Shown: positions 14,324 to 37,280 of the stretch, piece after piece
How positions within the stretch are numbered: the stretch's first letter is position 1
Layout: each line of letters begins with the position of its first letter
NCBI GenBank assembly: GCA_027310575.1
Contig: DAIDAO010000015.1
Location: 1-37,587 of the forward strand
Length of the DNA stretch: 37,587 bases
Origin: a bacterium
GTDB lineage: Archaea; Thermoproteota; Nitrososphaeria; Nitrososphaerales; Gagatemarchaeaceae
Direction: 5' to 3'
The notes under the pieces: generated by a model
The model's database searches: none
What the model saw: the letters and a program-made list of their open reading frames with translations, nothing else
Told to the model about the DNA's origin: nothing
Program-made: the position numbers and the translations under genes

Positions 14324-14327
14324 CCGG

Positions 14328-15371: not shown

Positions 15372-15384
15372 GCGACCCGCCGGG

Positions 15385-18114: not shown

Positions 18115-18728
18115 CGCCTGACCTCCACCCTCCTCCCGTTGATCCTGAGCCTGCCTTCGACGAAGAGCCTGACCGCCTCCGGGTAGGCCCTGTGCTCCTG
18201 CCTCAGTATCCGCGACGACAGGGAGCCTTCGTCGTCCCCCTCCTCGACCGGGACTGCCCTCTGGACTATGATCGGCCCCGCGTCGACTTCGGGGACCACG
18301 AAGTGTACGGTGCACCCCGAGACTTTGACCCCGTGCGAAAGGGCCTGCCGCTGGGCCTCGAGGCCCGGGAACGACGGGAGGAGCGCCGGGTGGATGTTCA
18401 TCATCCTCCCTTCGTACATCTCGACGAAGCTCTTTGGAAGTATCTTCATGAAGCCGGCCAGCAGGACCAGCCCGCTCCCCGGCATCACGCCGTGCTCCCC
18501 GAGGGCGGCTGCGAGCTTCGCGCCGTAGTCCTCCCTCGCCAGCCCTTCGCTCGGAAGAGCGACGGCTTTGACGCCGTGACTGCGGGCCACCCGGAGCGCC
18601 CTGGCGGCCGGGTCGTTGCTTATCACGACAGAGACCCTGGCACCCCTGATCGAGCCCCGCTCGATCGAGGTCAGTATCGCCTCGAGGTTGGACCCGCGGC
18701 CTGAGACGAGGACGCCTATGTTGAGCAC
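18111..18728 (-). CDS. purN: Phosphoribosylglycinamide formyltransferase (folate-dependent)
   Basis: A 205-residue protein. MLNIGVLVSGRGSNLEAIL is the N-terminal substrate loop, VVISNDPAARAL follows, and the catalytic region is LVLLAGFMKILPKSF, MMNIHPALLPSFPGLEAQ (Asn and His of the active site), CTVHFVVPEVDAGPII (active-site Asp). It uses 10-formyl-THF to formylate GAR, so this archaeon relies on folate rather than only the formate-dependent PurT route for this step. The start is one base after the purF stop, and its end overlaps folD. Confidence 0.96.
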   Translation of the reverse strand: MLNIGVLVSGRGSNLEAILTSIERGSIRGARVSVVISNDPAARALRVARSHGVKAVALPSEGLAREDYGAKLAAALGEHGVMPGSGLVLLAGFMKILPKSFVEMYEGRMMNIHPALLPSFPGLEAQRQALSHGVKVSGCTVHFVVPEVDAGPIIVQRAVPVEEGDDEGSLSSRILRQEHRAYPEAVRLFVEGRLRINGRRVEVRR

Positions 18729-18729
18729 T

Positions 18730-20166: not shown

Positions 20167-23100
20167 GCCATCAGCCTCCCGATGGGGCTCTCCCAGGTCT
20201 GCGCCAGCGAATCGAGGTCCAGCCTTGCCAGCTGCCTGCCCCGGTCCTTGAGCGCGAGGTCCGTCCCGCCCGTGCTTCCGAGCCGGGCGTATTCGACGCC
20301 GGCCGACTTCAGGGCCGCCTCGGTCTCCGCCGTACTTCTAGTCGAGACGACGAACCTGCCATGGGACTCGGAGAAGAGCGCTTCCTGCGGCGTCATCGCC
20401 TTCCTGACCGCCGCTATGTCGAGCTCCGCACCCATCCTCGAGGGGATGCACATCTCGGCGAGTGCGACCGCGAGGCCGCCCCGGGAGCAGTCGTGAACTG
20501 CGCTGACCGTCCCTGCGCGCACCAGTCTGATCATGGCGCGGAAGAGGACAGAGTCCTTGAGCGGGTCGGCCTTCGGGACCACGCCCGCAGACACCTTCAG
20601 CACTCTTTCGTAGTACTCGGAAGCGCCCATCTCCTTCCTCGTCCTCCCCAGCAGGTAGACCGACTCCCCCTCCGCCCGGAACCCGGCGCTCGCCCTGCGG
20701 GCGTCTCCTGGAGAGATCCCGACGACCATAGCGACGGGGGACGGCTTGATCGCGCGCTTGGTCGAAGCGTCTTCGTTGTAGAAGCTCACCTTGCCCCCCA
20801 CCACGGGTATCGGGAGGCCCCTGCAGTACTCCGCCATCCCTTCGACGGTCTCCCTGAAGGCCCAGTAGACCTCTGGGTCGGACGGGTCCCCGAACTGAAG
20901 ATGGTCCACGAGCGCCACCGGCTCTGCCCCCAGCGTCACGACGTTCCTGCAGGCCTCGGCGACGCAGCCCGCCGCGCCCCTCCGCGGGTCGAGGGAGCTG
21001 TGCCTGCTGTTCGCGTCCGCCTTCGCGGCGAGCATCGACCCGTTGGGGAGCCTCAGGAGGGCGGCGTCCCCTCCCCCCGGCTTCACCACTGTCCTCAGCC
21101 CGACTTCGTGGTCGTACTGCTCGTAGACCCACCTCCTGCTGGAGATGTTGGGGGAAGAGAGGAGCGCGAGGAGCGATTTCGAGATCTCGGGCTCCTTCGG
21201 GGATCCCGTCGGCGCGGGCGGGCGGGGCGGCCTCCGTGCGGGCCATGCGACGAGGGGCGCCTCGGCTACCAGCTGGGCAGGCAGGTCGGCTTCGACTGCG
21301 CCCTTCCAGCGGATTTTCAGGGAGCCGTCCCCTGTGACAGTTCCTATCACGGAGTGGGGGACGCCGTACTTGTCGAGGATCTTGACGACCGGGCCGGCGT
21401 CCTTCGGGTCGAGGACCAGGAGCATCCTTTCTTGGGATTCGGACGTCATGATCTCCCTGGGGCTCATGTCCCCCTCCCTCTGCCTGACGCGGCTCAGCTC
21501 GACGTCTACCCCTGTCCCGCCTTTGGCGGCTATCTCGGAGAGGCCTGTGGAGAGCCCGCCGCCCCCGAGGTCCTTCATCCCGTGGAGGAGGCCGGTCTCG
21601 ACGACTTCGAGCAGCGAGTCGAGGAGGAGCTTCTTCATGAACGGGTCTGGGACCTGGACTGACCTCCTCTCGGACTCTGGCCCCTTCGCCAGGTTCTTCG
21701 ATGCGAAGGAAGCGCCCCCTACCCCGTCCCTCCCCGTGCTCCCGCCGACCATGAGTATGGCGTCCCCCGGGCGCTTAGCCTCGCCGAGCGTGAGCAGCCC
21801 CTTCTTCCCTACGCCGACGCAGGCCACGTCCACGAGGCAGTTCTTCTCGAAGCTCTCGTCGAACTCGATGTCGCCTGCGACCGTGGGGACGCCGACGCAG
21901 TTGTGAGTGATGATCCCGCCAGAGGTGACGTAATTGTGCGTTCCCTCGACTTCAAAGTTGAAGACTGAGAAGTCCCCCTCGACTTCTTCGATTTGGACAA
22001 TCTTCACAGATGCAAAACGGCCCAAAGAGACGCTTCGGTAGTGCTCCATCGAAGGCATGGTGTAGAGAGCCAGGCGCCCGTTTGCCTTGGCGACGATCTC
22101 GCTCGAGAAATTGACCTTCAGGGCTTCGATGCGAGCCCTTCCACAGATAGTGAGTTCGTAGAAGGGGACACTCGAGCCAGTGTGAAATGAGACGGAACAA
22201 GACGGCACGTAGGACAAAGATTGGAGGAGAAGCAGGATTTGCTGAAAGAGGAGTTGGCTAGAACTTCCAAACCTCAAGTCGATTGAAGCGGAATTCGAGG
22301 TTCGTAGGGATCCATCGCCCCTGAGTACACCCTTGAGCAGCTCGAGATTCAGCTCCAGGGGATTACTGTAGAATATGCTGGGGATTACCTTATTGTAAGA
22401 ATTTTCCCCTGCACCGAGCACCTCACTGAAGAACCAGCCTAGTATTCGGGACGAGACCCTGACCTGCACGGAGTTTGTCTTCGTTGCGCGCTTGGTGTAC
22501 CTAATCCGTAGCCCGTCCAAGATGGAACAGACGTCATGGATGTACTCGGACTCGTCGCGCCGAAATGTCCAAACCACTCTGGAGGTCCTTCCCGACCCGC
22601 CTGCGCCTTCCTCATCGTGCACGCACCCTTCAGCCAAATAGTACCCGACGAGCCGAGAGAAGCCCTTGTCGAGATTGATGATTGCGGGTATCTTCGTGGC
22701 ATTCCCTCTCCGAGGGTATAGGAGTAGCTCCTCTCTAGGCAAGCGGAACGTCGAAAGCGATTCGACTGAAAGCAGCTCGTTCAGCGGCAGATAGTTCATC
22801 CCAAAATAGTGGCACCTTCGAGATGAGCTTACTCCAATCTGGCGAAGGAGCGGGTCGAGCTGCTCTTTGAACTCGCGCAGCTTGCGACCGTTCGATTTTA
22901 CCGTAATTCCCGCTACCGCACCTCTCTCCTTGAGTTCGTCGATGAGGTCGAATGCCGTCTGCTTCTCCTGCTCCTGTACCGGGTATGGGAAGTCGCAGGC
23001 AATCGGCAGGGAGTCGCCTGGTCTCAGAGACTTGGCTTGAATGGCCGTAACCTGCCCGTCCCTTACGAGGAACATTGGATGATCTGGAGTTACTTCGATT

Positions 23101-23822
23101 TCGCGGCCCAGACCGGTCTTGATCCTTACGAGCCTACTCGCCTTAGCTTCGTAGACTCTCGAGACTCTCCGGAATTGCGCCTCGGAGTTTCCAAAATCAA
23201 AGGATAGCAGCCGCAAGTCAGAGAGTGGCCTGCTTATCGTCAGGCCATCCGCGTTATATTCATGAGAAAGTCTGTTTTGAGAGGCGAGAGCCTCGACCAG
23301 TTCGCTCGCTTTCGCGACGCGGAACTTGCCCGATTCGGTGTAATACACACTCTCGTTCTCCGAAAGGCAGTTGCCGTAGTCTGCGATTCCCTTGACCACG
23401 TTGCGGAGGAGCCACCGCGAGTGGCCGCTCGCCTCCGGGTCGCCGAACCTGAGCACGTCCAGGAGCGCTATCGGCCTGGTCCCCATCGAGAGGATGTCCC
23501 GGAGGACCCCCCCTATCCCGGTCGACGCGCCGCCATAGGGGTCGACCGCTGACGGGTGGTTGTGGCTCTCGATGTGGAGGGTCACGACGTCCCCCTCCCC
23601 GACGTCGATCACCCCGGCGTCGTACCCCGGGCCGAGCAGGACCCGCTTCCCTGAGGTGGGGAAGAGCTTCAGCAGGGCTCTGGACGACTTGTAGGAGCTG
23701 TGCTCAGACCACTCGGCGTCTATGATCGCCCACTCTGTCTCGTTGGGCTCGCGGCCCAGCAGCCGCCTGACGGTGGCTGCCTCCTGGTGCGTCAGCCCCA
23801 GCACGAGTCCGGCTGTGATCAT
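20163..23822 (-). CDS. purL: FGAM synthase large subunit PurL, interrupted by an intein
   Basis: A 1219-residue precursor. Residues 1-151 and 642-1219 are the exteins; joined, they give a PurL of about 729 residues, normal for the small (PurS/PurQ-dependent) type. Motifs: AEWSEHSSYKSS, VTLHIESHNHPSAVDPYGGA (ATP site), ILSMGTRPIALLDVLRFGD, then GIADYGN joined to CVGVPTVAGDIEFDESF, and further MKDLGGGGLSTGLSEIA and SRGGLAVALAEM. PurL makes FGAM from FGAR with ammonia delivered by PurQ. The gene lies one base after purQ and overlaps purF by four. The insertion is between two invariant residues of a conserved loop, so activity requires splicing. Confidence 0.96.
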   Translation of the reverse strand: MITAGLVLGLTHQEAATVRRLLGREPNETEWAIIDAEWSEHSSYKSSRALLKLFPTSGKRVLLGPGYDAGVIDVGEGDVVTLHIESHNHPSAVDPYGGASTGIGGVLRDILSMGTRPIALLDVLRFGDPEASGHSRWLLRNVVKGIADYGNCLSENESVYYTESGKFRVAKASELVEALASQNRLSHEYNADGLTISRPLSDLRLLSFDFGNSEAQFRRVSRVYEAKASRLVRIKTGLGREIEVTPDHPMFLVRDGQVTAIQAKSLRPGDSLPIACDFPYPVQEQEKQTAFDLIDELKERGAVAGITVKSNGRKLREFKEQLDPLLRQIGVSSSRRCHYFGMNYLPLNELLSVESLSTFRLPREELLLYPRRGNATKIPAIINLDKGFSRLVGYYLAEGCVHDEEGAGGSGRTSRVVWTFRRDESEYIHDVCSILDGLRIRYTKRATKTNSVQVRVSSRILGWFFSEVLGAGENSYNKVIPSIFYSNPLELNLELLKGVLRGDGSLRTSNSASIDLRFGSSSQLLFQQILLLLQSLSYVPSCSVSFHTGSSVPFYELTICGRARIEALKVNFSSEIVAKANGRLALYTMPSMEHYRSVSLGRFASVKIVQIEEVEGDFSVFNFEVEGTHNYVTSGGIITHNCVGVPTVAGDIEFDESFEKNCLVDVACVGVGKKGLLTLGEAKRPGDAILMVGGSTGRDGVGGASFASKNLAKGPESERRSVQVPDPFMKKLLLDSLLEVVETGLLHGMKDLGGGGLSTGLSEIAAKGGTGVDVELSRVRQREGDMSPREIMTSESQERMLLVLDPKDAGPVVKILDKYGVPHSVIGTVTGDGSLKIRWKGAVEADLPAQLVAEAPLVAWPARRPPRPPAPTGSPKEPEISKSLLALLSSPNISSRRWVYEQYDHEVGLRTVVKPGGGDAALLRLPNGSMLAAKADANSRHSSLDPRRGAAGCVAEACRNVVTLGAEPVALVDHLQFGDPSDPEVYWAFRETVEGMAEYCRGLPIPVVGGKVSFYNEDASTKRAIKPSPVAMVVGISPGDARRASAGFRAEGESVYLLGRTRKEMGASEYYERVLKVSAGVVPKADPLKDSVLFRAMIRLVRAGTVSAVHDCSRGGLAVALAEMCIPSRMGAELDIAAVRKAMTPQEALFSESHGRFVVSTRSTAETEAALKSAGVEYARLGSTGGTDLALKDRGRQLARLDLDSLAQTWESPIGRLMA
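21900..23369 (-). mobile_element. Intein with LAGLIDADG homing endonuclease domain inside PurL
   Basis: A 490-residue class 1 intein covering precursor residues 152-641. Block A is CLSENESVYY, with Cys1 as nucleophile. Block B is TPDHPMFLV with the Thr and His. The end reads HNYVTSGGIITHN, giving the penultimate His and terminal Asn, followed by Cys as the +1 extein residue. Two LAGLIDADG-type helices are visible, LVGYYLAEGC (about residue 391) and LLKGVLRGDG (about 496), with one acidic residue each, so the homing nuclease may be active. The DNA is visibly less GC-rich than the exteins, which supports recent gain. Confidence 0.95.
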
Positions 23823-23823
23823 G

Positions 23824-24522
23824 TCAATCGCTCCTCAACAGGGAGCTGAAGATCAGGGCGCCGTCGGAAGAACCTGAAGGGCTGAGGATGGGTTCAGTGG
23901 CCCTTTCGGGGTGGGGCATCAACCCCACCACGTTCCCCGCCCTGTTGCAGATCCCGGCTATGTTCTCCAGAGTCCCGGTGGGGTTGGAGGAGGCGACCGG
24001 GTTCCCGCCGTCGTCGCAGTACCTGAAGACGACCCTCCCGCCTGTTTTCAGCTCGTGCAAACCCTCGTCCGGGGAGTAGTACCTCCCTTCGTTGTGGGCG
24101 ATGGGGAGGTGCAGGACCTGCCCCTTCTTCATGCCGCGCGTGAAGCTGGTGCTCTCGTTCTCCACGCGGACGGCGGTCCACTTGCAGACGAAGCGCAGCG
24201 AGGCGTTCCTCAGAAGCGCGCCGGGCAGCAGGCCGGCTTCGATCAGGATCTGGAAGCCGTTGCAGATGCCGAGGATTGGGACCCCCCTGTCGGCGAGCCT
24301 GCCGATCCGTTCGAGAGCCGGGCTCCTGGCGGCTATGGCGCCGGCCCTCAGGTAGTCCCCGAAGGAGAAGCCCCCAGGGACTACGACCGCGTCGTAGCCG
24401 GCGATGGCGTCCTCGTGCCAGACGAGGTCTGCGCTCATCCCCTTCAGCGTCCGGACCGCGGTCACAGCGTCGAGGTCGCAGTTGCTCCCCGGAAAGCGGA
24501 CCACCGCGACGCGTCTGTTCGT
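23824..24522 (-). CDS. purQ: FGAM synthase glutaminase subunit PurQ (probable ACG start)
   Basis: A class I glutamine amidotransferase. Motifs: RFPGSNCDLDAV, VVVPGGFSFGDYLRAGAIA, ILGICNGFQILIEAGLLPG with the nucleophilic Cys, VLHLPIAHNEGRY, and VVGLMPHPERA with the catalytic His and Glu. It supplies ammonia to PurL. The first canonical start, GTG 24504, would cut off most of the first beta strand (RRVAVV). A strong Shine-Dalgarno GGAGGTG lies six bases before an in-frame ACG at 24522, which restores the strand and is bounded by an in-frame stop just upstream (the purS stop). I therefore favour ACG. The conventional alternative is 24504. Confidence 0.93.
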   Translation of the reverse strand, partial: TNRRVAVVRFPGSNCDLDAVTAVRTLKGMSADLVWHEDAIAGYDAVVVPGGFSFGDYLRAGAIAARSPALERIGRLADRGVPILGICNGFQILIEAGLLPGALLRNASLRFVCKWTAVRVENESTSFTRGMKKGQVLHLPIAHNEGRYYSPDEGLHELKTGGRVVFRYCDDGGNPVASSNPTGTLENIAGICNRAGNVVGLMPHPERATEPILSPSGSSDGALIFSSLLRSD

Positions 24523-24525
24523 CTG

Positions 24526-24786
24526 CTACACCTCCACTGAGATCGAGTGGGCCGCAGGGTTGTAGATCCGCAGTTCGTCGCACATGCGCGTCACCAGGCT
24601 CTTGGCGCTCTCTGCGTCCCTGGCCTGGACCTCCACCCTGAGGAACTTCCCGCTTCTGATCGCCCTGACCTGCCTGAAGCCCGATTTGGAGACGAGGTTG
24701 TTGTAGATCACGTCCCCTTCCGGGTCGCTGGCGCCCTCGGTGTTCGAGATCACTACCTTGACGGAGAAGACGCGGGGCCCGGGCAC
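24526..24786 (-). CDS. purS: FGAM synthase small subunit PurS
   Basis: An 86-residue PurS from GTG 24786: VFSVKVVISNTEGASDPEGD, then FRQVRAIRSGKFLRVEV and a C-terminal strand ending SISVEV. PurS is a small dimer that connects PurL and PurQ in the archaeal and Gram-positive FGAM synthase complex. A longer start (TTG 24798) is possible, but the TATA box CTTAAATAC centred near 24813 is 27 bases before the GTG, which suits a leaderless message. It is the first gene of the ten-gene minus-strand operon and diverges from purH. Confidence 0.92.
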   Translation of the reverse strand: MPGPRVFSVKVVISNTEGASDPEGDVIYNNLVSKSGFRQVRAIRSGKFLRVEVQARDAESAKSLVTRMCDELRIYNPAAHSISVEV

Positions 24787-24810
24787 ATGAAGCCGCAATT
24801 TCTGAATCGT

Positions 24811-24874
24811 ATTTAAGATGGTTTTGGCACAGACTCCGCAATTACACCACTAAAGCGAAATTGGTGTTATTTAC
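24811..24874. promoter_or_regulatory. Divergent purS/purH promoters with an inverted repeat between them
   Basis: The minus-strand TATA box (24811-24816) serves purS and the plus-strand box TTATTTAC (24867-24874) serves purH; each is 26-27 bases from its start codon. Between them lie TTACACCA (24842-24849) and TGGTGTTA (24862-24869), inverted arms matching at 7 of 8 positions with a 12-base spacer. The right arm overlaps the purH TATA box, so a bound dimer could block purH and perhaps purS. The regulator is unknown. Confidence 0.5.
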
Positions 24875-24895
24875 GAGAAGGCAGCGACCTCGATC

Positions 24896-26503
24896 ATGCA
24901 GGGCGGCGGCCTAATCAAGGTGGAGACGGCTGTGCTGAGCGTCTCCGACAAGAAAGGGCTGGTAGAGTTTGCGGCCCGGCTGGCTGGGTTCAAGGTGGAG
25001 ATGCTCGCCACCGGCGGGACTTACAGCGCCCTGAAGGAGGCCGGCATCAAGGTCAGGAGCTTGCAGGAGGACATGAAGCTCCCGACGGCTGTCTCAGGGA
25101 GGGTCAAGACGCTGCACGCTCCGCTGCACGCCGCCATACTGGCGAGGCGGACAGACGAGCATCTGGCCGAACTCGGGTCGATGGGGGTGAAGCCCATGGA
25201 CATGGTCGTCTGCAACTTCTACCCGTTCGAAGAGGCGCTTCGCAAGAAGGGGGCGGGGGACGGCGAGCTGGTGGAGAGCATAGACATCGGCGGCCCCACG
25301 ATGGTGAGGGCCGCTTCGAAGAACTTCGAGAGGGTGACTGTGGTCCCGGCCCCGAGGTTCTACGGCTCGGTCTTGGACGAGCTGTCGAAGAACGGCGGCG
25401 CGACCACGCTCGAGTTCAGGAGAAGGATGGCGGTCGAGGCGTTCTCGATCACCGCTTCCTACGATTCGATGATCTTCAATGGCCTCAGGGAAGGAGGTCC
25501 GGCGGCGCTCCCGCAGAAGCTGCTGATCTCTGCGTCGAAAGTCCAGGACGCGAAATACGGGGAGAACCCTGACAGGAAGGCGGCAGTCTATTCGATCGAC
25601 GGCTGGTCCACGATGTCCGGCTGGAAGCAGCTCGCAGGGGACGTGCTCTCGTTCAACAACTTCCTCGACGTCGGCAGCGCCTACGACATAGTAGAGGGGT
25701 ATGAAGGCGCGGCGGCAGTGGCGACTGTCAAGCACGGCCAGATCAGCGGCTTCGCGTTCGCCCCCACGGTGGCGGAGGCCTATTCGCTTGCCCACTCGTG
25801 CGACCCCGAGGCAGACTTCGGCGGCACTGTGGTGACGAACGGGCGGGTGGGCCTCGAGGCCGCGAGGCTCATAGGGAGGAACGAAGGGGCGCACGACAAG
25901 TCGGTCTACACCGAAATCGTGATCGCGCCTGACTTCGACGGGGAGGCAGTGTCGCTCCTGGAAAGGAAACAGAAGAAGAAGATCAGGGTAGTGCAGACCG
26001 TAGGGAGGCCCGACTACCCGTTCGACCTGAAGGTGGTCGAGGGGACTGTCCTCGCCCAGAACGCTGTGGACTACAGGTCGAAGCTAGAACCGGCGGCCGT
26101 GACCGTCCCCACGAAGGAGAAGCCCGACGACCAGGAGCTCGCGAAATTGCTGGCCGCCTGGGAGGTGGTCAGGAAGGTCCAGTCGAACGGCATAGTGATC
26201 GCGGACGGGAGCTTCGAGAATGGGATCCTGAACCGCTTCTGGACCCTCGGGGTCGGCAGCTTCCGCAAGCGCAACGGCGCAGTGAAGATCGCCCTGGACA
26301 ACTCAGGGGGGAGGGCCGCGGGAGCGGTCTGCGCCTCGGATGGGTTCTTCCCGTTCAGGGACAGCGTCGACATGCTTGGGGATGCGAAGGTCTCAGCCAT
26401 CATCCAGCCTGGCGGGTCGGTGAGCGACGCGAAGGTGGTCGAGGCTGCCGACGAGTACGGCATCCCGATGGTGTTCACGCACACGCGGGCTTTCAAGCAC
26501 TAG
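24896..26503 (+). CDS. purH: Bifunctional AICAR formyltransferase / IMP cyclohydrolase
   Basis: A 535-residue protein. The N-terminal MGS-like cyclohydrolase domain (about 1-200) shows VSDKKGLVEFAARL, MLATGGTYSALKEAGI, SGRVKTLHAPLHAAIL, CNFYPFEEAL and ESIDIGGPTMVRAASKNF. The AICAR formyltransferase domain (about 200-535) shows AKYGENPDRKAA, LSFNNFLDV and, at the catalytic site, VKHGQISGFAF in place of the usual K-H-x-N-P-C-G. Lys and His are kept, but the N-P-C-G segment is changed. The end IPMVFTHTRAFKH matches the family's G-x-x-M-x-x-T-x-x-R-x-F-x-H end. It catalyses the last two IMP steps. It converges on purD with a 4-base overlap. Confidence 0.95.
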   Translation: MQGGGLIKVETAVLSVSDKKGLVEFAARLAGFKVEMLATGGTYSALKEAGIKVRSLQEDMKLPTAVSGRVKTLHAPLHAAILARRTDEHLAELGSMGVKPMDMVVCNFYPFEEALRKKGAGDGELVESIDIGGPTMVRAASKNFERVTVVPAPRFYGSVLDELSKNGGATTLEFRRRMAVEAFSITASYDSMIFNGLREGGPAALPQKLLISASKVQDAKYGENPDRKAAVYSIDGWSTMSGWKQLAGDVLSFNNFLDVGSAYDIVEGYEGAAAVATVKHGQISGFAFAPTVAEAYSLAHSCDPEADFGGTVVTNGRVGLEAARLIGRNEGAHDKSVYTEIVIAPDFDGEAVSLLERKQKKKIRVVQTVGRPDYPFDLKVVEGTVLAQNAVDYRSKLEPAAVTVPTKEKPDDQELAKLLAAWEVVRKVQSNGIVIADGSFENGILNRFWTLGVGSFRKRNGAVKIALDNSGGRAAGAVCASDGFFPFRDSVDMLGDAKVSAIIQPGGSVSDAKVVEAADEYGIPMVFTHTRAFKH

Positions 26504-27885
26504 CGGGCCGGCGGCCTGCGGAGGGAGCCGAGATGGGCGCGGCTCCTCCTGACGTCCTCGCCGCTTCCGATGTCGCTCCTCCACCGGAGCGGGCCGACCA
26601 GCGAGCCGACGCCCCTGAGCGAAGCCCTCCGGGCGGCCTCGAGGGTGGGGCCGAGTCCGGTCACTGCGACAGAACGGGAGGAGCCGATGAGACTGGCGCC
26701 CCCCTCCAGGCGGACGTCCATGGGGAAGACCCTCACGTTGGCCGCGCCTCGGGCCAGCGCGTAGGCCCCACCGAGGTCGAGCTCGTCCCCACCGTGCGGC
26801 TGGGCCCCTCTTGTGCCGTAGGAGAGGGGGACTGCGCAGGTCACGACAGAAGCCTGCCTCCTGAAGTTGATGCCCTTGAGCTTCCCTTCCAGGATGCGGA
26901 AGCAGACGTCGACCAGGTCGTCCGCGAGCGTGGCGTACAGGTTGATCGATTCCGTGTTCCCGCCTCTGCTGTTCCGCTCGAGGACCTTGAAGCCGCTCCC
27001 GGTATGCATGAGGGCGTCGTACAGGACGATTCCTCTGAGGCCCGGGTCGGACCCCCTTCCTTTCCACTTCCTGAAAGCCCGCTCTTCGGAGGCGACTACG
27101 GAGTCCCAATCGGACCTTCGCAGGAATGGGAGGAAGGGCTCTGGACCTCTGTAGCTCCCCATCCCTCCGGTGAGGCTCCCCCTGTCCGCGTCCAGGCTCC
27201 TCTTGTAGTCCCGGGTCAGCGGGGCCGGGACGAAATGCTTCCCGTCGCTGAAGCCGTGGAACGAGGATTCTTCGCCTTCGACCTTCTCCTCGACGACGAC
27301 CCTCCCTTTCGAGAGCAGGTTGAGAAAGAAGGTGGCCATCCCCTCCTCTGTGAAGTCGCTCCCCCAGACGCCGACCCCCGCGCCTCTGGCGGGCATGTCG
27401 GGCTTGATCACGGGCCGGGCGATGTCTGAAACGAATTCCCTCAGGTCGGACAGGGCGGCGTCCTTGTCGCGATATCTTGCCGGGTCGAAGACCTTGTAGC
27501 GCGGGTTTGCGTCGCTGAAGATTTCGTCGAAGAGAAACCTCTGGTCAGCCTTGCTCCTTTCCACCGCGTACTTCTTGGTCACGCAGACCATCGGGATCCC
27601 GGTCTCACCCTCGATGGTGTCGCGGCCCCCAGCGATCACGAAATCCTCCGTGTCTGTGAGTCCGAAGGCGATCTTGTCTCTGTGCTTGGAGGCGAACCTC
27701 GCGACGTCCCTGACGTTGAGGTCCGGGACCACGCTGTGGGACTCCGACCTCTCCAGGTTGAACGGGTTGGCCTGCTTCTCCACGACGTAGAACCGGGGGG
27801 CATACTTGCTGCTCCTGAGGAAGGTGTCTATCATCGCGGACCCGCTGAGGCACTTTGAGACTACCAGCACTCCTACCTTGTCCAA
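26500..27885 (-). CDS. purD: Phosphoribosylamine-glycine ligase-like ATP-grasp enzyme (divergent PurD)
   Basis: A 461-residue ATP-grasp protein from TTG 27885. The ATP-grasp parts are PVIKPDMPARGAGVGVWG, RVVVEEKVEGEESSFHGFSDG (the P-loop region and E-E-K-L-x-G-E-E-x-S motif of PurD), DADRGSLTGGMGSYRG, and VLERNSRGGNTESINLYATL. The N-terminal domain is unusual: the Rossmann glycine loop (G-x-G-G-R-E-H in typical PurD) reads VVSKCLSGSAM. PurD makes GAR from PRA, glycine and ATP; this is the only step otherwise missing from the cluster, which supports the assignment. A TATA-like box (27911-27917) lies 29 bases before the start. Confidence 0.85.
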   Translation of the reverse strand: MDKVGVLVVSKCLSGSAMIDTFLRSSKYAPRFYVVEKQANPFNLERSESHSVVPDLNVRDVARFASKHRDKIAFGLTDTEDFVIAGGRDTIEGETGIPMVCVTKKYAVERSKADQRFLFDEIFSDANPRYKVFDPARYRDKDAALSDLREFVSDIARPVIKPDMPARGAGVGVWGSDFTEEGMATFFLNLLSKGRVVVEEKVEGEESSFHGFSDGKHFVPAPLTRDYKRSLDADRGSLTGGMGSYRGPEPFLPFLRRSDWDSVVASEERAFRKWKGRGSDPGLRGIVLYDALMHTGSGFKVLERNSRGGNTESINLYATLADDLVDVCFRILEGKLKGINFRRQASVVTCAVPLSYGTRGAQPHGGDELDLGGAYALARGAANVRVFPMDVRLEGGASLIGSSRSVAVTGLGPTLEAARRASLRGVGSLVGPLRWRSDIGSGEDVRRSRAHLGSLRRPPAR

Positions 27886-30334: not shown

Positions 30335-31030
30335 TTAGGCGTTCCGTCTGGCCTTCGGAGCGAGGCGCGCCTTTGAAATCTGCAGGTACCCCGAGTCCCC
30401 GCGCCAGTGCGTGGCCGATTCCAGGACTTCGACCCTGCTCTTGAAGAGAGGGCAGTCGAGGACGAAGGTCTCCCCCTCCCCGCCTTCCAGGCCGACGTGG
30501 AACCTGAACTTCCTGCCGAGCGCCACGAGTTCGTCCACCGCGCCCTCGTCCAGGATCCTGCCCAGCCAGCTCTGATCGAGACCGAGCGCAGACACGCTCA
30601 CCATCAGCACGACGAACCCGTCCCTGACCAGCCTGCGGAGGTGGCCCTCGGGGTCCGACCCCCAGAGCGGAGAGACGCAGCCGAGCCCCAGGCTCTTGCA
30701 GACCTTCTCCACCCTGCTCTTCTGGTAGACGCTGGCGAGCGCGCCTGTGTAGACACCCTCGAGCCCGAACCTCTCCTTGGCCCCGGCAAGGGCCCGCTCG
30801 AGGTCGCCCAGCTCCTCCTCCTTGACCCCTTCCGTCGTGGCCGTGACCTGGGGGACGCCCATCGCCTGCGCCTGCAGGCGGGTCCATTCGACGTTCGGGA
30901 AGTGGAACATGTAGGACGCTTCTGACTTCGGGAACAGGGTGACCACGCAGGTGAGTTCGTCCTTCTTCGTGGCGAGCCAGGCGGCATAGGTGCTGTCCTT
31001 GCCCCCGGAGAAGAGCGCCGCTACCCTCGT
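30335..31030 (-). CDS. dph6: Diphthine-ammonia ligase family ATP pyrophosphatase (probable ACG start)
   Basis: A protein of about 231 residues. Its start region RVAALFSGGKDSTYAAWLA holds the PP-loop S-G-G-K-D-S. Then come YMFHFPNVEW, EEELGDLERAL, GVYTGALASVYQKSRVEKVC, PLWGSDPEGHL, GLDQSWLGRILD, and GLEGGEGETFVLDCPLF, all typical of Dph6/MJ0570-like enzymes. They perform the last amidation in diphthamide synthesis on EF-2. No ATG, GTG or TTG is in frame before the PP-loop. The codon expected to encode Met is ACG (31028-31030), seven bases after AGGTGG. The first canonical codon (GTG 30946) would delete the active site. It diverges from the srp54 promoter. Confidence 0.87.
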   Translation of the reverse strand, partial: TRVAALFSGGKDSTYAAWLATKKDELTCVVTLFPKSEASYMFHFPNVEWTRLQAQAMGVPQVTATTEGVKEEELGDLERALAGAKERFGLEGVYTGALASVYQKSRVEKVCKSLGLGCVSPLWGSDPEGHLRRLVRDGFVVLMVSVSALGLDQSWLGRILDEGAVDELVALGRKFRFHVGLEGGEGETFVLDCPLFKSRVEVLESATHWRGDSGYLQISKARLAPKARRNA

Positions 31031-31065
31031 CTCAACCCACCTAGGGTCGGTCCCGTCTCGAGGTG

Positions 31066-31072
31066 TTAAATA
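31066..31072. promoter_or_regulatory. Bidirectional TATA box (dph6 and original srp54)
   Basis: TTAAATA reads as a TATA box on both strands. It is centred 27 bases before the ATG of the srp54 remnant (31096), ideal for a leaderless transcript, and about 40 bases before the proposed dph6 start. The srp54 side now drives only a 35-codon truncated frame. Confidence 0.55.
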
Positions 31073-31095: not shown

Positions 31096-31203
31096 ATGCT
31101 AGACTCGCTGAGAGAGGGCCTGCAGGCTGCAGTCAAGAAGCTCGTCGGAGCCGACTTGCGCAGAAACCGTGTGTGGGGTTCACTGCTCCTCCGTCGGGAA
31201 TGA
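31096..31203 (+). pseudogene. Truncated 5' end of srp54 (first 20 codons, then foreign sequence)
   Basis: The frame opens with MLDSLREGLQAAVKKLVGAD, which aligns residue for residue with the start of the intact SRP54 at 35958 (MLDSLREGLQNAISKVLKSN). It then becomes LRRNRVWGSLLLRRE and stops at 31201. Codons are GC-ending (GAC, CTG, AAG, CTC, GTC), like host genes. A proper TATA box precedes it at leaderless spacing. So this is the original promoter and start of srp54, cut off after about codon 20 by the island that follows. A short N-domain peptide might still be made. Confidence 0.85.
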
Positions 31204-31224
31204 CTCGACTTGCGTTGGGTATCA

Positions 31225-31500
31225 TTACTTGCTTTTTCCGACCTTGGTGACGGTTTCAACCCACCTATGACGGCAGTTCTCGCATTCGAAGGCCACTTCA
31301 AACGAGTCTCGCTCGATAGGAATATCTTCATACGTGACTTTGGCCACGTTCATGCCGTATCCTCTCGGGTCAGCGGCCTTGACGACAAAAGTGCGAGGGA
31401 TTCGCTCCGTTCCGCCCTCTGATTTCACGAGTTTCGTGCCCCGTGATTTTACCGCGAAGCGGTGACCACAACTCGGGCATCTACGCATGAACTCCCTCAA
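31225..31500 (-). CDS. Small double zinc-ribbon protein
   Basis: A 91-residue protein (start at residue 1 or at Met5). MRRCPSCGHRFAVKSRG near the N-terminus and FECENCRHRWVETVTKVG at the C-terminus each give a CxxC knuckle, together one four-Cys zinc site. Between them is a charged segment with DPRGYGMNVAKVTYEDIP. It resembles small zinc-binding proteins of archaeal mobile elements in layout. Nucleic-acid binding is plausible but unproven. It is the gene next to the left boundary of the island. Confidence 0.6.
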   Translation of the reverse strand: MREFMRRCPSCGHRFAVKSRGTKLVKSEGGTERIPRTFVVKAADPRGYGMNVAKVTYEDIPIERDSFEVAFECENCRHRWVETVTKVGKSK

Positions 31501-31611
31501 CTTGATTTAGGTTACCTGCCAAGTACTTGGGGCTTTGCTAACATTGCATATCGCCGGTGGAATTCCAAGGAAACCTTCGTCTGGGGTATCAGAAACTCCA
31601 AACATCAAGGG

Positions 31612-32172
31612 TCAACAGTTGGGGGTTGGGCAAACGTGACCTATACCTGTGCTCACAAAACTCTGAACGACGGTCACCTTAATCTGATTTACCGAATCTG
31701 GATTGTAGTAAATGACATAATAGCGGCCGGGATTCAGGTGGACATCCAGAGTTCCGTTCATCACTCCTTTGAGGACAAAATAGGGTGGGCACAGTTGGGG
31801 GCATACCTCGGGCTGGGGCGTCGTGTAAAGCGGGAAGTTGTCATACCCCGAGGCTGACAAGACATAAACTGAGATGTTTCCATCAGCCGTGAATTTCCCG
31901 GATATCGTTCCGTTCGTAGACAATAAGAATTCGACCCCGGTGGCGGTCCGAGGACGGACATCGGTAACGTTTCCTGTTTGCAAGATGGTGTATCCCATCG
32001 CGGAGGTAGACGATTGATCTTGATGGTTTCCTCCCGAAATCACTGACAGAGCTAGAACCACGACTAGAACAAATATCACTGCGCCGGCGACCAGCAACCT
32101 CTTCATTCTCGGGCCTGCCAAGCCGCTCCCATTCTTGGGAGACACCATGGTCATCGCTCGTTCCAATCCCAT
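31612..32172 (-). CDS. Exported or membrane-anchored protein, unknown
   Basis: Up to 186 residues; the Met at residue 23 (MKRLLVAGAVIFVLVVVLAL) may be the real start, giving an N-terminal signal anchor. The rest is a small beta-rich extracellular domain with N-x-S/T sites, a Cys pair (VCPQLCPPYF) and a C-terminal VCPTPNC. The phrase LNPGRYYVIYYNPDSVNQ resembles a beta-sandwich edge seen in archaeal surface proteins. No enzyme motif. It lies 15 bases downstream of the other exported gene, so the two probably form one operon. Confidence 0.6.
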   Translation of the reverse strand: MGLERAMTMVSPKNGSGLAGPRMKRLLVAGAVIFVLVVVLALSVISGGNHQDQSSTSAMGYTILQTGNVTDVRPRTATGVEFLLSTNGTISGKFTADGNISVYVLSASGYDNFPLYTTPQPEVCPQLCPPYFVLKGVMNGTLDVHLNPGRYYVIYYNPDSVNQIKVTVVQSFVSTGIGHVCPTPNC

Positions 32173-32187
32173 CGCTCGAACTCCGAC

Positions 32188-32637
32188 CTATGGAGTCGGG
32201 CTCTGCGGTCCGCTACACGAAGGGTCAGGAGCCATATCCGTGACAGATGCGTAGGCGTAGTTCACGCCTGAGGTTTGCGGATACGCTCCATCCCATGTAA
32301 TCATGACGTCCTTCGAATTGTCCTGATTTATTAGGCCGGAGTCCCAGCTTTGGCCGGTTGTCAGGTTGACCACCGGACCAAAGGCCCAGGCTCCGTTCCA
32401 ATACGCGGCAGCCTGTGCGTAACTGTCAGGCCCGTATGGGTGTATCATCTTTCCATAGAATTCCTCCTGAATGGCAAAGGAATCGCCTGTGACTTCGACC
32501 CAAGCGTAAGCTCCGCCATCAGAAGTGGTCTGACAAGACGCCACTGTTAGGCTGGCGTGAGCTTTCAGAGGCACAATCGAAAAGCTTGTCATCGGAAACA
32601 GGAAAAGCAACGCACCTGCGAACTTTTTCGGTGCCAT
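32188..32637 (-). CDS. Secreted protein, unknown
   Basis: A 149-residue protein with a clear signal peptide (KKFAGALLFLFPMTSFSIVP, cleavage near KAHAS). The mature part of about 120 residues is rich in Tyr, Trp, Ala and Gly, with one Cys near each end (VASCQTT, DPSCSGP) that could pair. The TATA-like TTTATTATG (about 32662-32670) is centred 29 bases before the ATG, so this is the first gene of the two-gene exported operon. No family recognised. It diverges from the HxlR regulator, whose operator is about 90 bases away. Confidence 0.6.
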   Translation of the reverse strand: MAPKKFAGALLFLFPMTSFSIVPLKAHASLTVASCQTTSDGGAYAWVEVTGDSFAIQEEFYGKMIHPYGPDSYAQAAAYWNGAWAFGPVVNLTTGQSWDSGLINQDNSKDVMITWDGAYPQTSGVNYAYASVTDMAPDPSCSGPQSPTP

Positions 32638-32727
32638 TGCGGGCTCAGAAATGACTTGGACATAATAAACTGAACTGACATCAGAGAAATCTTGTGATGC
32701 GTGAGAAACGATTTCCTCTCCAGGAGA

Positions 32728-32759
32728 TTACACAATAGAATTTATCTAGTATTGTGTAA
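32728..32759. promoter_or_regulatory. Perfect inverted repeat operator at the HxlR gene start
   Basis: TTACACAATA (32728-32737) and TATTGTGTAA (32750-32759) are exact inverted 10-bp arms around the spacer GAATTTATCTAG, which itself contains a TATA-like TTTAT. The right arm touches the ATG at 32760. This is the classic arrangement for autorepression by a dimeric winged-helix regulator. Confidence 0.75.
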
Positions 32760-33218
32760 ATGCTTGGGCTTGTGGGCGGTCAGGGAGTTCGCCATGATGA
32801 TCTGCAATTGAAAGAATACGCGTCCCTGAGCGGTCGCATTCATCAGCTGTGTCAAGATTTCAAGAAGGAATCCAAGCCCGCGCTTTCGAGAGAATCTATA
32901 TCGGAGACCGATAATAGAATTTCCCGGACGATACTGACGATGTGGATTATCGACATCATTCTTTTCCTCTCCGTTCGATCCTCTTCTCGTTTCGAAGAGA
33001 TTCGGAAAGAGCTACCCGGGATAAGCGGCAAAGTCCTTTCGCGCAAACTCACGCTCTTGGAAGGGAAGGGATTGATAACTAGACATGTGACAGGTTCGAA
33101 GCCAGCGAGGGTAGACTACCAACTCTCCTCAAGAGGTGTAGTCCTAGCGGAGTTGCTTGAGCCAACTATGATGTACCTTCGGCTCATCGAAGACTCCGTC
33201 AAACCTTGTGCTAAATGA
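32760..33218 (+). CDS. HxlR-family winged-helix transcriptional regulator
   Basis: 152 residues from the ATG at 32760. If the TATA in the operator is used, the real start may be the GTG at 32772 or the TTG at 32808. After a 60-residue helical N-terminus comes a winged helix: FEEIRKELPGISGKVLSRKLTLLEGKGLITRHV (recognition helix LSRKLTLLE) and the wing RVDYQLSSRGVVLAELLEP. This F-x-E-L-R-x-x-L-P-G-I-S-x-x-V-L-S-x-x-L pattern is typical of HxlR/DUF24 regulators. It probably binds the perfect inverted repeat just upstream. The gene ends 23 bases before the convergent LAGLIDADG gene. Confidence 0.8.
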   Translation: MLGLVGGQGVRHDDLQLKEYASLSGRIHQLCQDFKKESKPALSRESISETDNRISRTILTMWIIDIILFLSVRSSSRFEEIRKELPGISGKVLSRKLTLLEGKGLITRHVTGSKPARVDYQLSSRGVVLAELLEPTMMYLRLIEDSVKPCAK

Positions 33219-33241
33219 GACGTCGTAACCGCGCCTAGGGT

Positions 33242-34185
33242 TCATTGCGCGTCCTCTGGCACCACCTGGCAAATGCCCTCTGGTGGTATTCCCAGAAGAA
33301 GCCTGGCTCTAATGACCTTCTCTTCCAACCTCTTTCGCGGTTTCGCGATTTCCGCCCTGCAACGCGCTATCTGATTCCTCTTGTTCCGGGTTCTGATGTA
33401 AGGTTCTGTGTTCCGTATCACCTTCGCCAATCCGTCGGCCCCCATGTCACCAGCGCAAAACCGTGGCAGAGCTTCGAGGAATCCCGCGGGTTTGCATGCT
33501 TGGTCGGCACCACGGAGCATTCGACCCCGTTCGCGCGCAAGAAAGCGCAGATCCCGGCAAGTGGTAGTTTCTCCTTCTGGTAAATGCTCACGCGGTATGT
33601 GCTGTGTGATGCGTTAGCCTCGAAGCACCCTTCCGTGTCTATCCAGGCAGCGACCAATGCCCAGTCCCACGTAGCCCCCAACCTTGGTTCGGCCTCCGTC
33701 AGGACCATCTCTTTCTTGACGATGGCGCTTATGCCGATCTTGTACGTCTCCCCGTGCAAGAACCTTCCCCGCCATCTTTCTGGGACTTCGACGAGCACGT
33801 GCTGATTCGATTCTGTCTGCTGATGCTCCACTTCGAAGTCGCAGATCCCGATTATGGTCCCTCGAATGAGGTAGGTCGGCCCTACCTCGAAGTGAAATCC
33901 CGCCTTCGATTCGAAGGTCGGCAGCCAGAAGTCGAAGCGATAACGAACCCTCGTCCCCCTAACCCTGTAAACCCTCCCCACCAACGAAGCGGGCCCATGG
34001 AACGCCCCTTTTGGCCCGCTTACCGGAGGGTTCAACAACTGGCCCAGTCTCCACCAGTTGAATCCGGGCTTGGCCCTGCTCACCAGCTGTTCCAGCTCGG
34101 GGCTCATGGTTGCCTCTTTGACAGAGCTGAACTTGATTGTGTACAGCTGATTGGGCACGAACGTGCTTTGATGCTCTCTTGGCAC
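33242..34185 (-). pseudogene. LAGLIDADG homing-endonuclease-like gene with a one-base frameshift
   Basis: From GTG 34185, the frame shows three similar beta stretches (FVPNQLYTIKF, FEVGPTYLIRGTI, FLHGETYKIGISAI). The LAGLIDADG-type motif ALVAAWIDTEGCFEANASH follows, then VSIYQKEKLPLAGICAFLRANGVEC. The frame stops soon after FALVTW. A second frame continues with GADGLAKVIRNTEPYIRTRNKRNQ, the usual conclusion of this domain. The switch lies at five G's (33439-33443); one more G would restore the frame. It may be a sequencing error, a decayed gene, or frameshifting. Only one LAGLIDADG motif is seen, so a homodimer would be expected. It diverges from cas1 by 31 bases. Confidence 0.7.
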
Positions 34186-34216
34186 GTGGAGGGCAGGGGC
34201 CAGAGTCCCCGACAAG

Positions 34217-35890
34217 ATGCTGGCTGACCGAGCTCTTGAGGACGTCGGCAGGCACGGCTGGGTCACCGTTCCTCCTGAGGCGGCAGAACTCGCCGGGTGG
34301 CTACACGGCCTGAATCAGGAAGGGGATTCCCGTCTCCGTAACATCTACGAGTCGATGGAAGATATGTCCGATGAGCGGTGGGCCGCGGTCCTCAACCCCT
34401 CCGGAAGCGAAGTTAGGCGCATCTTGGACGTGCTCGCCGCCTCAGGTGGGCTTGACAAGACCGTTTGGTTCAGGGAACTCGGCCGCCCGGCAATTCCATA
34501 CGTCCTTCCAGGCAAGGCACCCTTCAAAGAGCAAAGGTGCGGCCAATGCGCGTTCTACGCCCCAGCGAAGCGGAGATGCGTGGTGTGGTGGCTGGCGAAC
34601 AAGCGCGGGAGATTCGTCCAGGAGCGGTCGAAGTGGCCAGGTTCAATCACGGAGTTCGAATTGCACAAGATGAAACATGCGTATCACATCGGGCCGCATT
34701 CCTCTGCCTGCCTCAGGTTCTTGGACAAGAAGAGGGACCACCTAAAGCCTGCAATCCCTAGGCTGTGCGAAATCTGCAGGAAGACCGTACGGCCTACAGG
34801 CAAGTCCGCAAGGTGCCGCAACTGTGGGACCCTGTATGAGAACTGGCACGGGAAGGTGAAGGTCCAGACAGCTTACCAACACAGATTCAACATGATCTAT
34901 CATGAAGTTACCGGGGGTGACTCGAAGGCAGACCTCGACGTGTGGAAGTCCAAGGTCAAGGAAGACCTTCAGGACAAGAGAGTCGTGTTCGGAATCGATG
35001 ACGACCTTGAAGATGCCTTGGCGGAGGAGCATCTGGAGCCAGAGCCGAAACTCCATTGGAAACGGCCAGCCTATGACGAAACCCTTCAGCAACGGGTCAA
35101 TACGCTGGCACGGAATACGGATATTGCGAGGCAACTCTCTATCGCGATGGCGCAAAGCGCCCTGAACGCGACCCGTAGGATTGCAAAGTTTGCCAAGGTG
35201 TACCAAGGCGACGCCAGCTCTCTCACTGCGAAGCAGGAGAGATACCTGGCTCTGATGAGTGGCGCCAATCCTGCCAAGCTGCTTCCGTACGAGGCGTTGG
35301 TGATGAAACAGTACTGGATTTGCTATGGGCTCGCCCTCAGAGAAGCTGTAGAATGGGTCGGTCCAAGAAAGAGATCGAGGTTTGTCCCCGAGTCCGTGGA
35401 GAGTCCAGCAGGAAGAGCCAGGGGATACTCACCGGTAGATGCGGCGATAAACTATCTCCATCAGAGGCGTCGGGGACGTGCGGAGCAGATTAACATGGAA
35501 GTGGGTTTCCATGGAACTTGTGACGGGTTCCTACACAAGAGAGCCAGTGGATCCAAGAAGACTGGTTTGATTTTCGACATGATTGATCCCTTCAAGTTCG
35601 CGGACAGAGAAGAGCTCCTGCTCGTGGTGCTCAATCGAGGTTTGACCTGGAGAGACTTCAAGATAGAGGCGGACAGGAGGGGGTCGAACTTCTACTACCC
35701 AGCGAACGCAGCCACGGCGAAGTTGGACCAGGCTGGGAAAGATGCAGATGGCCTTCTGGTGAGCTATAGGGGGCGGAATATCCACCTTGCTGAGGCATAC
35801 CGTGAGTTTGCGTCACGTCTGTTGGAGGTCTCAATGACATCTAAATCCGTGCCTTCGCCGGGAGATATGTTCGTCTTTCAGATGGACTAG
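34217..35890 (+). CDS. Solitary Cas1-family integrase-like protein with N-terminal Cys clusters
   Basis: 557 residues. The C-terminal half (about 285-535) matches the Cas1 catalytic domain: PYEALVMKQYW (Glu359), GYSPVDAAINYLHQ, then CDGFLHKR (His440) and LIFDMIDPFKFADREELL (Asp454, with Asp457). These are the E, H and D metal ligands of Cas1 integrases. The N-terminal half lacks the usual Cas1 beta domain. It carries CGQC...C (Cys108, 111, 121, perhaps 165) and a zinc ribbon CEIC...CRNC (Cys184, 187, 200, 203). No Cas2, Cas4, CRISPR repeats or PolB are nearby. A casposase-like integrase of a mobile element is the likely role. Confidence 0.85.
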   Translation: MLADRALEDVGRHGWVTVPPEAAELAGWLHGLNQEGDSRLRNIYESMEDMSDERWAAVLNPSGSEVRRILDVLAASGGLDKTVWFRELGRPAIPYVLPGKAPFKEQRCGQCAFYAPAKRRCVVWWLANKRGRFVQERSKWPGSITEFELHKMKHAYHIGPHSSACLRFLDKKRDHLKPAIPRLCEICRKTVRPTGKSARCRNCGTLYENWHGKVKVQTAYQHRFNMIYHEVTGGDSKADLDVWKSKVKEDLQDKRVVFGIDDDLEDALAEEHLEPEPKLHWKRPAYDETLQQRVNTLARNTDIARQLSIAMAQSALNATRRIAKFAKVYQGDASSLTAKQERYLALMSGANPAKLLPYEALVMKQYWICYGLALREAVEWVGPRKRSRFVPESVESPAGRARGYSPVDAAINYLHQRRRGRAEQINMEVGFHGTCDGFLHKRASGSKKTGLIFDMIDPFKFADREELLLVVLNRGLTWRDFKIEADRRGSNFYYPANAATAKLDQAGKDADGLLVSYRGRNIHLAEAYREFASRLLEVSMTSKSVPSPGDMFVFQMD

Positions 35891-35914
35891 CCTGGCAATT
35901 CGTATCGGCTAACC

Positions 35915-35923
35915 CTATTAAAC
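35915..35923 (+). promoter_or_regulatory. Island-borne TATA box now driving srp54
   Basis: CTATTAAAC is centred about 39 bases before the srp54 ATG, giving a leader of about 13 bases. A six-codon frame (ATG 35938 to TGA 35956) lies in the leader and its stop overlaps the srp54 ATG. Confidence 0.45.
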
Positions 35924-35957
35924 AACCGAGAATCCTGATGACCCTAGGATACATCTG

Positions 35958-37280
35958 ATGTTAGATTCACTCCGTGAAGGGCTCCAGAATGCAATATCCA
36001 AGGTGCTGAAGTCGAACGTGGTGGACGAGAAGGTCACCAAGGAGTTCGTCCGCGACCTGCAGAGGGCGCTCATCCAGTCTGACGTCAACGTCAGGATAGC
36101 CCTCGAGGTGACGGAGAGGGTCCAGAAGAGGGCCCTAGAGGAGAAGCCGCCGGGCGGCGTAACGAAGAAGGACCAGATAGTCTCCATCCTCTACGAGGAG
36201 CTCGCCAGGCTTCTGGGCGGCCAGGGAGGCCTGCAGCTGGGCAAGGACAGGACGAACGTGCTCGTGATGCTCGGGGTCCAGGGGTCGGGGAAGACCACGA
36301 CGACCGCGAAGCTGGCCCGCCTCTACTCCAAGCGCGGGTTCAAGGTGGGGGTCGTAGCGGCGGACACGTTCCGACCGGGCGCTGTGGCTCAGCTGAAGAC
36401 CCTGGTCGCGTCGTCGGGGGTGGAAGTGTACAGCGACGAGAAAGAGAAGGACTCTGTGAAGATAGCCAAGGAAGGCAGGAAGCGGTTCGAAGGCTCCAAG
36501 AACCTGGTGATAATAGACACCGCAGGGAGGCACAAGGAGGAGAAGGGGCTCCTCCAGGAGATGAAGGAGGTCGTGAACGGCGTGAAGCCCGACGCCACTG
36601 TGCTTGTGATCGACGGGACCATCGGTCAGCAGTGCTACAACCAGGCTCTCGCCTTCCACCAGGCCGCCCCTGTGGGCGGGATCATAGTGACGAAGCTCGA
36701 CGGAGCGGCGAAGGGGGGAGGGGCGCTGGCCGCGTCAGCCGCCACCGGGGCCAAGATATTCTTCATCGGCACAGGCGAGAGGATAGACGACCTCGAGGAG
36801 TTCGCCCCCACCAGGTTCGTGGGCCGCCTCCTCGGCATGGGGGACCTGAAGGCCCTCATGGAGATGGTGAAGGACGCGGAGGTCGTGGTCGACGAGAAGA
36901 TGACCCAGCGCATGATGTCTGGCAAGATGACGATGAACGATCTGCTCGCGCAGTTCGAGCAGATGAAGAAGTTCGGGTCTCTGAGGAAGGTCCTGGAGCA
37001 CATCCCAGGGTTCTCCGGCCAGGTCGACGCGAAGGAGCTCGACAAGGCCGAGGACAGGGTCAGGGTCTACAAGTCGATCATCCAGTCCATGACTGGAGAT
37101 GAGAAGGAGAACCCGGAGAGCATCAACGCGTCCAGGCTCAGGCGCATCGCGAAGGGGTCGGGGCGGGGCGAGAAGGACGTGCGGGAGCTTCTGACGAGGT
37201 ACAAGCAGATGAAGACGCTGGTGAAGACCAGCAAGGGCCGCGAGCTCAGGCAGATGATGCGGCGCCTGGGTGACCAGTAG
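35958..37280 (+). CDS. srp54: Signal recognition particle 54 kDa GTPase, with island-derived first codons
   Basis: 440 residues, full length. N domain (1-85), G domain with GVQGSGKT (106-113), VVAADTFRPGAVAQLK, LVIIDTAGRHKEE and TKLDGAAKGGGALAAS, then the methionine-rich M domain with MTMNDLLAQFEQMKKFGSL and SRLRRIAKGSGR for 7S RNA and signal-sequence binding. SRP54 targets ribosomes making membrane and exported proteins. The first about 14 codons use A/T-ending triplets unlike the rest of the gene, while a second, host-like copy of the start lies at 31096. So the 5' end and promoter appear to have been replaced by the island. The Pus10 gene follows directly. Confidence 0.97.
   Translation: MLDSLREGLQNAISKVLKSNVVDEKVTKEFVRDLQRALIQSDVNVRIALEVTERVQKRALEEKPPGGVTKKDQIVSILYEELARLLGGQGGLQLGKDRTNVLVMLGVQGSGKTTTTAKLARLYSKRGFKVGVVAADTFRPGAVAQLKTLVASSGVEVYSDEKEKDSVKIAKEGRKRFEGSKNLVIIDTAGRHKEEKGLLQEMKEVVNGVKPDATVLVIDGTIGQQCYNQALAFHQAAPVGGIIVTKLDGAAKGGGALAASAATGAKIFFIGTGERIDDLEEFAPTRFVGRLLGMGDLKALMEMVKDAEVVVDEKMTQRMMSGKMTMNDLLAQFEQMKKFGSLRKVLEHIPGFSGQVDAKELDKAEDRVRVYKSIIQSMTGDEKENPESINASRLRRIAKGSGRGEKDVRELLTRYKQMKTLVKTSKGRELRQMMRRLGDQ

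Follow-up and report, generated by a model that had tools for sequence, protein, structure and literature searches.

Two srp54 starts flanking a 4.8-kb island with a Cas1-like gene in a Gagatemarchaeaceae-like archaeon

We analyzed a 37,587-bp stretch of DNA (hereafter, the window), an entire contig of a 1.58-Mb metagenome-assembled genome (G000; 97% complete, 4.35% contamination) from a soil archaeon in or near the Gagatemarchaeaceae, or group I.1c (name from PMC10640624), in which two starts of the essential protein-targeting gene srp54 lie on either side of an island of 4.8 kb. The left start, next to dph6, is of native type, the right start is derived from srp54 and opens the complete gene, the island between them encodes a Cas1-family protein, and a second split of the same gene occurs in another genus. 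The best explanation, which we hold to be probable without being secure, is that a mobile island entered within the first 20 codons of srp54 and supplied, at its right end, the promoter and first codons of a relative's srp54. If this is true, the replacement of a promoter and N-terminus by mobile DNA, a feature of a few bacterial elements, extends to an essential archaeal protein-targeting gene and recurs at nearly the same srp54 codons. The closest named srp54 loci belong to uncultured Thaumarchaeota such as REEA66, with Ca. Gagatemarchaeum stordalenia as a further relative. Compared genomes are given G-numbers and compared loci L-numbers.

Two starts of one gene

The stranded original start (window 31096–31155, forward strand) consists of 20 codons encoding MLDSLREGLQAAVKKLVGAD, after which the sequence becomes unrelated and then runs into a stop. 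Its promoter includes a TATA-like box, TTAAATA (31066–31072, forward), about 30 bp before the ATG. On the left lies dph6 (diphthamide synthase; 30335–31033, reverse; Pfam Diphthami_syn_2, E 5.9e-68), the usual left neighbor of srp54, which adjoins it in congeners. The order dph6, promoter, srp54 was found in 12 island-free congeners with left-type promoters and a gap of usually 12–27 bp, and the window matches them in box class and in spacing from dph6. The left start was recovered by genome search (E 1.1e-6), and its bases are up to 92% identical to those of the real start of congener L018. Given the conserved promoter box, the congener-like spacing and this identity, the fragment is not a product of chance. 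Its divergence, measured relative to that of the srp54 body, is normal against the majority start class.

The working gene (35958–37280, forward; 440 aa; Pfam SRP54, E 3.5e-68) is the sole complete srp54 of the genome, in which the other match is an FtsY-like paralogue. It opens with a substitute N-terminus of 20 codons, MLDSLREGLQNAISKVLKSN (35958–36017, forward), preceded by a substitute promoter and leader, CCCTATTAAACAACCGAGAAT... (35913–35957, forward), from which srp54 is probably expressed. The two starts are 4862 bp apart and identical at 12 of 20 residues and 57% of bases, with a longest in-register identical run of 4 bases. The original prediction, that the same gene start is written at both positions in different DNA, that the left copy keeps its own promoter and that island-free relatives read straight from dph6 through the promoter into srp54, is thus borne out.

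The source of the right start can be traced within the genus. Its promoter, CCTATTAAACAACCGAGAAT, shares 20 of the 21 bases of CCTATTAAA.AACCGAGAAT with the island-free congener L004, at the same distance from the ATG, and its SK..K.N residue pattern is common to the island-free congeners L003, L004 and L009. Divergence relative to the srp54 body is normal against this class and low against most other starts. Because promoter and residue pattern both occur in island-free congeners, the right start is the srp54 5' end of a relative and not a piece purpose-built by an element. Comparison of the left and right starts in promoter, residue pattern and divergence indicates that two start classes circulate in the genus and that G000 holds one of each, flanking the island. 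The earlier proposal that the element brought a substitute promoter and N-terminus therefore survives in part: the working srp54 has both, but the start is not element-specific, its residue pattern being shared with L003, L004 and L009.

A further part of that proposal concerned composition, namely that the first 14 or so codons of the right copy are A/T-rich while the rest is host-like. The description is correct, with a third-position G+C of 0.43 over the first 14 codons, the lowest of the compared set, against about 0.90 downstream. Several relatives are also low at the srp54 start (0.50–0.57), so that A/T-rich codons alone are no proof of foreign origin, and we rejected them as not diagnostic. 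A recombination breakpoint inside srp54 was likewise considered and set aside; windowed identities drop only in the first 90 bases, with no clear breakpoint.

Separately, a SAM-dependent-methyltransferase-like gene (named by eye) lies between dph6 and srp54 in L004, L007, L008, L010, L013 and L017 and is partial in L006, L012, L014, L015 and L016. It always accompanies the CCTATTAAA promoter class, and its presence and decay differ between sister lineages.

The second split was found at locus L073 of genome G035. There, 17 initial codons of srp54 and then a stop come after dph6, and a 2.75-kb insert separates them from a complete srp54. An exact 60-bp repeat, spanning positions -16 to +44 of srp54, covers both starts, and synonymous differences follow it over codons 15–17; the insert holds an ABC permease gene and a broken luciferase-like oxidoreductase. 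The same scan revealed no upstream duplicate start at 62 other srp54 loci, chiefly thaumarchaeal, and a family-wide search with the N-terminus placed additional starts next to srp54 in G000 and G035 only. From this distribution, insertion at the srp54 start has happened at least twice. The anatomy of L073 fits either integration by way of a 60-bp core or a target that was duplicated over a long stretch. In reply to the suggestion that other genomes might carry the island between two srp54 starts, an independent split at nearly the same codon was found, around an insert without an integrase.

A distant Cas1-family protein and its relatives

The only recombinase-like gene in the island (34217–35890, forward) ends 67 bp before srp54 and encodes a Cas1-like protein of 557 aa with a Cas1 domain at residues ~298–485. 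The Pfam score fell just below threshold (22.2 against a cut-off of 22.3; E 8.9e-5), and matches were obtained to TIGR00287 (2e-6), to the PADLOC Cas1 profile (2.7e-7) and with hhalign (E 2.2e-6). A Foldseek search with an AlphaFold model retrieved AfCas1 (4n06; 4e-7) and a casposase (6opm; 1.2e-6); the mean pLDDT of the model is 62, and the fold match carries weight mainly because the top matches are all Cas1 or casposase. In alignment, E359, H440 and D454 match the residues that are invariant in the catalytic site of canonical Cas1, and D457 matches the fourth, acidic position, such that both the Cas1 fold and the E-H-D-D/E catalytic residues are present, together with extra N-terminal and zinc-binding regions. 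Pfam, NCBIfam, PADLOC, profile–profile and structural comparisons are consistent in predicting a distant member of the Cas1 family. No canonical Cas1 match was obtained in G000, no cas2-like ORF or CRISPR array was seen in the island, and its main ORFs include no tyrosine or serine integrase family. The Cas1-like protein is the sole candidate in the island for the agent, past or present, of integration.

Relatives of this protein occur in 7 of 46 family genomes; the rest of a 400-genome sample of the order yielded none. Three complete relatives are longer (824–891 aa) and lie upstream of rpl10e (G031, G063) or PCNA (G033), each accompanied by a small PD-(D/E)xK/Vsr-like ORF and a LAGLIDADG-like ORF. 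A partial copy lies upstream of rpl10e in G067, and remnants lie between dph6 and srp54 in G061 and upstream of a NOB1/PIN gene in G033. In G066, a decayed Cas1-like locus is near a split rpl10e, where ~3 kb of cargo separates a C-terminal remnant of rpl10e from a complete copy (L051, 1320–1586 and 4547–5032). The remnant starts at about codon 78 and is 81% identical to the complete copy in a codon alignment; cargo genes lie between the copies, and the opposite side holds genes of Vsr-like and LAGLIDADG-like type together with decayed Cas1-like ones. The possibility that rpl10e beside Cas1-like genes is foreign was rejected after a tree gave it no support.

The long Cas1-like proteins (L044, 14242–16716; L046, 7931–10444; L047, 8424–11099) have an unannotated N-terminal domain and CxxC zinc-binding regions, and their genes are divergent from a Vsr-like and LAGLIDADG-like pair directly upstream of rpl10e or PCNA. 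These loci possibly represent an unnamed class of elements. The favored explanation of the srp54 split, if right, would also point to a Cas1-family integrase lineage of uncharacterized biochemistry with directly testable target choice. A broader proposal is speculative and on balance rather unlikely: elements powered by a Cas1-family integrase that belongs to neither CRISPR nor casposons would insert at the start of essential archaeal genes, with diverged 5' ends of these genes carried as rescue pieces. Mobile DNA could then exchange the promoter and N-terminus of a lineage's essential gene, and the two srp54 start classes of the genus may be scars of visits by such an element.

Origin of the split and comparison with known elements

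In the mechanism that we favor, a mobile island would have entered the srp54 gene of a Gagatemarchaeaceae-like archaeon within its first 20 codons, probably in a single event. Its right end would have brought the srp54 promoter and first codons of a relative, by which srp54 would have stayed in frame and expressed, and the original start would have been left beside dph6. The left start is presumably the ancestral one in the G000 lineage, as its adjacency to dph6 and its promoter class suggest.

Several observations weigh against this mechanism. The old and new starts share no run of more than 4 bases, so no attachment core or target-site duplication is visible in the window, and around the junctions, from 70 bp before to 100 bp after the two starts, no 8-base match was found in any register. 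No terminal inverted repeat was noticed in the window and no repeat pairs the island ends, the L073 insert carries no integrase, and no stranded 5' ends were found at the other Cas1-like loci (rpl10e, PCNA, NOB1). An episomal form was not found either, with no Cas1-like relatives in viral contigs, plasmids or phages. Support for the genus tree is weak around G000, which leaves adjacency and promoter class to carry the ancestral state. With the core missing, the event would either have been an older and more complex one or have come about by recombination with the locus of a relative.

Recombination with a relative's locus is the alternative that survives best, and we regard it as somewhat unlikely. 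It dispenses with a dedicated integrase: DNA of a relative, with the other promoter class and with the island next to its srp54, would have been taken in by homologous recombination inside srp54 on the right and by end-joining at codon 20 of the resident gene on the left. Such an import explains the absent shared core and why the right start is the ordinary start of a relative, and the mixing of promoter and start classes across the genus tree, which implies frequent exchange at the srp54 locus, also speaks for it. However, the window and L073 are broken at nearly the same srp54 codons, the 60-bp repeat of L073 resembles a site-specific or duplicated target, and Cas1-family genes recur at the srp54 locus (G000, G061).

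The window junctions come from a metagenome assembly, and the contamination of G000 and the end of the contig just past srp54 would be compatible with a co-binned relative's island-plus-srp54 contig having been misjoined to the dph6 end. We consider such a misassembly very unlikely, in view of the single complete srp54 in a genome of this completeness, the stop of the left fragment mid-gene in unrelated island DNA and the same architecture in the independent assembly of L073.

Another scenario takes its lead from the LAGLIDADG-like ORF that adjoins the Cas1-like gene in the window and from the Vsr-like and LAGLIDADG-like ORFs that accompany longer Cas1-like genes in G031, G033, G063, G067 and G066. 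A LAGLIDADG nuclease would have cut the srp54 start, and the element would have repaired it with a diverged, cut-resistant start, in keeping with the recoded start in the window and the synonymous differences at the L073 break. This is highly improbable: the window ORF is frameshifted, its homologues are widespread away from srp54, it has no Pfam or PDB match, and the L073 insert contains no such ORF. That the left fragment is a mere partial duplication of srp54's own start, later diverged, is scarcely credible; the near-identity of the two copies of L073 speaks for it, but of the two window copies it is the non-functional left one that is conserved and congener-like and has its own conserved promoter, the opposite of what decay predicts.

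As in SXT- and dusA-type elements, the window has the original start stranded at one end of the island and, at the other end, a substitute start joined in frame to the gene. Bacterial dusA-specific integrative elements, including IMEVchUSA3, have the same anatomy (PMC8409611), which in the window involves a start pair with 60% identity over 20 residues. They are 23–37 kb in size, with a dedicated integrase and a defined att core, whereas the window has no visible core, a Cas1-like protein as sole candidate enzyme and an archaeal host. The SXT/R391 integrative and conjugative elements likewise use the 5' end of a gene, prfC, in bacteria (PMC2786100), but are conjugative, ~100 kb long and equipped with a tyrosine recombinase (PMC10866021), in contrast to a 4.8-kb island without conjugation genes.

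Casposons, including thaumarchaeal ones, resemble the island in that a Cas1-family integrase is encoded in Thaumarchaeota, and the window protein matches casposase 6opm structurally. They differ in having PolB, terminal inverted repeats and short target-site duplications, none of which was found in the window (PolB was absent among the island ORFs). Thaumarchaeal casposons are located either in the 3' regions of genes or between genes (PMC6563490). By PolB, inverted repeats and target duplication the island is not a casposon, nor is it CRISPR adaptation. The 68 mapped thaumarchaeal elements lie in tRNA genes (39), intergenic sites (15) and 3' regions of protein genes (14) (PMC6563490). Like the window island, they use conserved protein genes as sites, among them one for diphthamide biosynthesis; the protein-gene insertions are 3'-distal in 14 of 14 cases (PMC6563490), in contrast to the 5' end used here. 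In the open-access literature searched, we came across no report of an insertion site at the 5' end of a protein gene in archaea; the replacement of promoter and N-terminus is known from bacterial elements (SXT in prfC, dusA islands), and its occurrence at an archaeal protein gene is apparently new.

Island cargo and neighboring genes

The island (31156–35912) has a G+C of mostly 0.47–0.58, compared with ~0.64 in the flanking host genes, and no known RNA was found in it. From left to right, its cargo comprises a zinc-ribbon protein of a family common in the archaeal family (31225–31500, reverse), a predicted membrane-anchored or secreted protein of no family with a hydrophobic N-terminal stretch (31612–32172, reverse), a predicted secreted protein of no family (32188–32637, reverse) and an HxlR-type winged-helix regulator (32760–33218, forward; Pfam HxlR, E 6.4e-15). 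The LAGLIDADG-like ORF (33242–34266, reverse; WDWALVAAWIDTEGCF... / ...VIRNTEPYIRTRNKRNQIA) spans two overlapping frames and is apparently frameshifted near a GGGGG run at ~33450; both halves lie in a single frame in the intact homologues L166 and L167. A PDB sequence search and Pfam gave no match, so its name refers to the motif. This lineage-specific family, with one or two upstream repeat modules, is present in 10 of 46 family genomes.

The dph6 start codon near 31033 (window 31028–31036) appears to be ACG, with no in-frame ATG, GTG or TTG ahead of the conserved N-terminus, and likewise seems to be ACG in L004, L005, L009 and L010. Elsewhere in the window, two TnpB/OrfB genes (IS605-type, Cas12f-like; 654–1958 and 5736–6923) are found close to the genes for eIF5A and TFB. 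A purine-biosynthesis cluster (purB, M, C, E, F, L, Q, S, H, D; 11430–27885) stands between the TFB-PIN-eIF5A block and dph6, which are near each other in most congeners.
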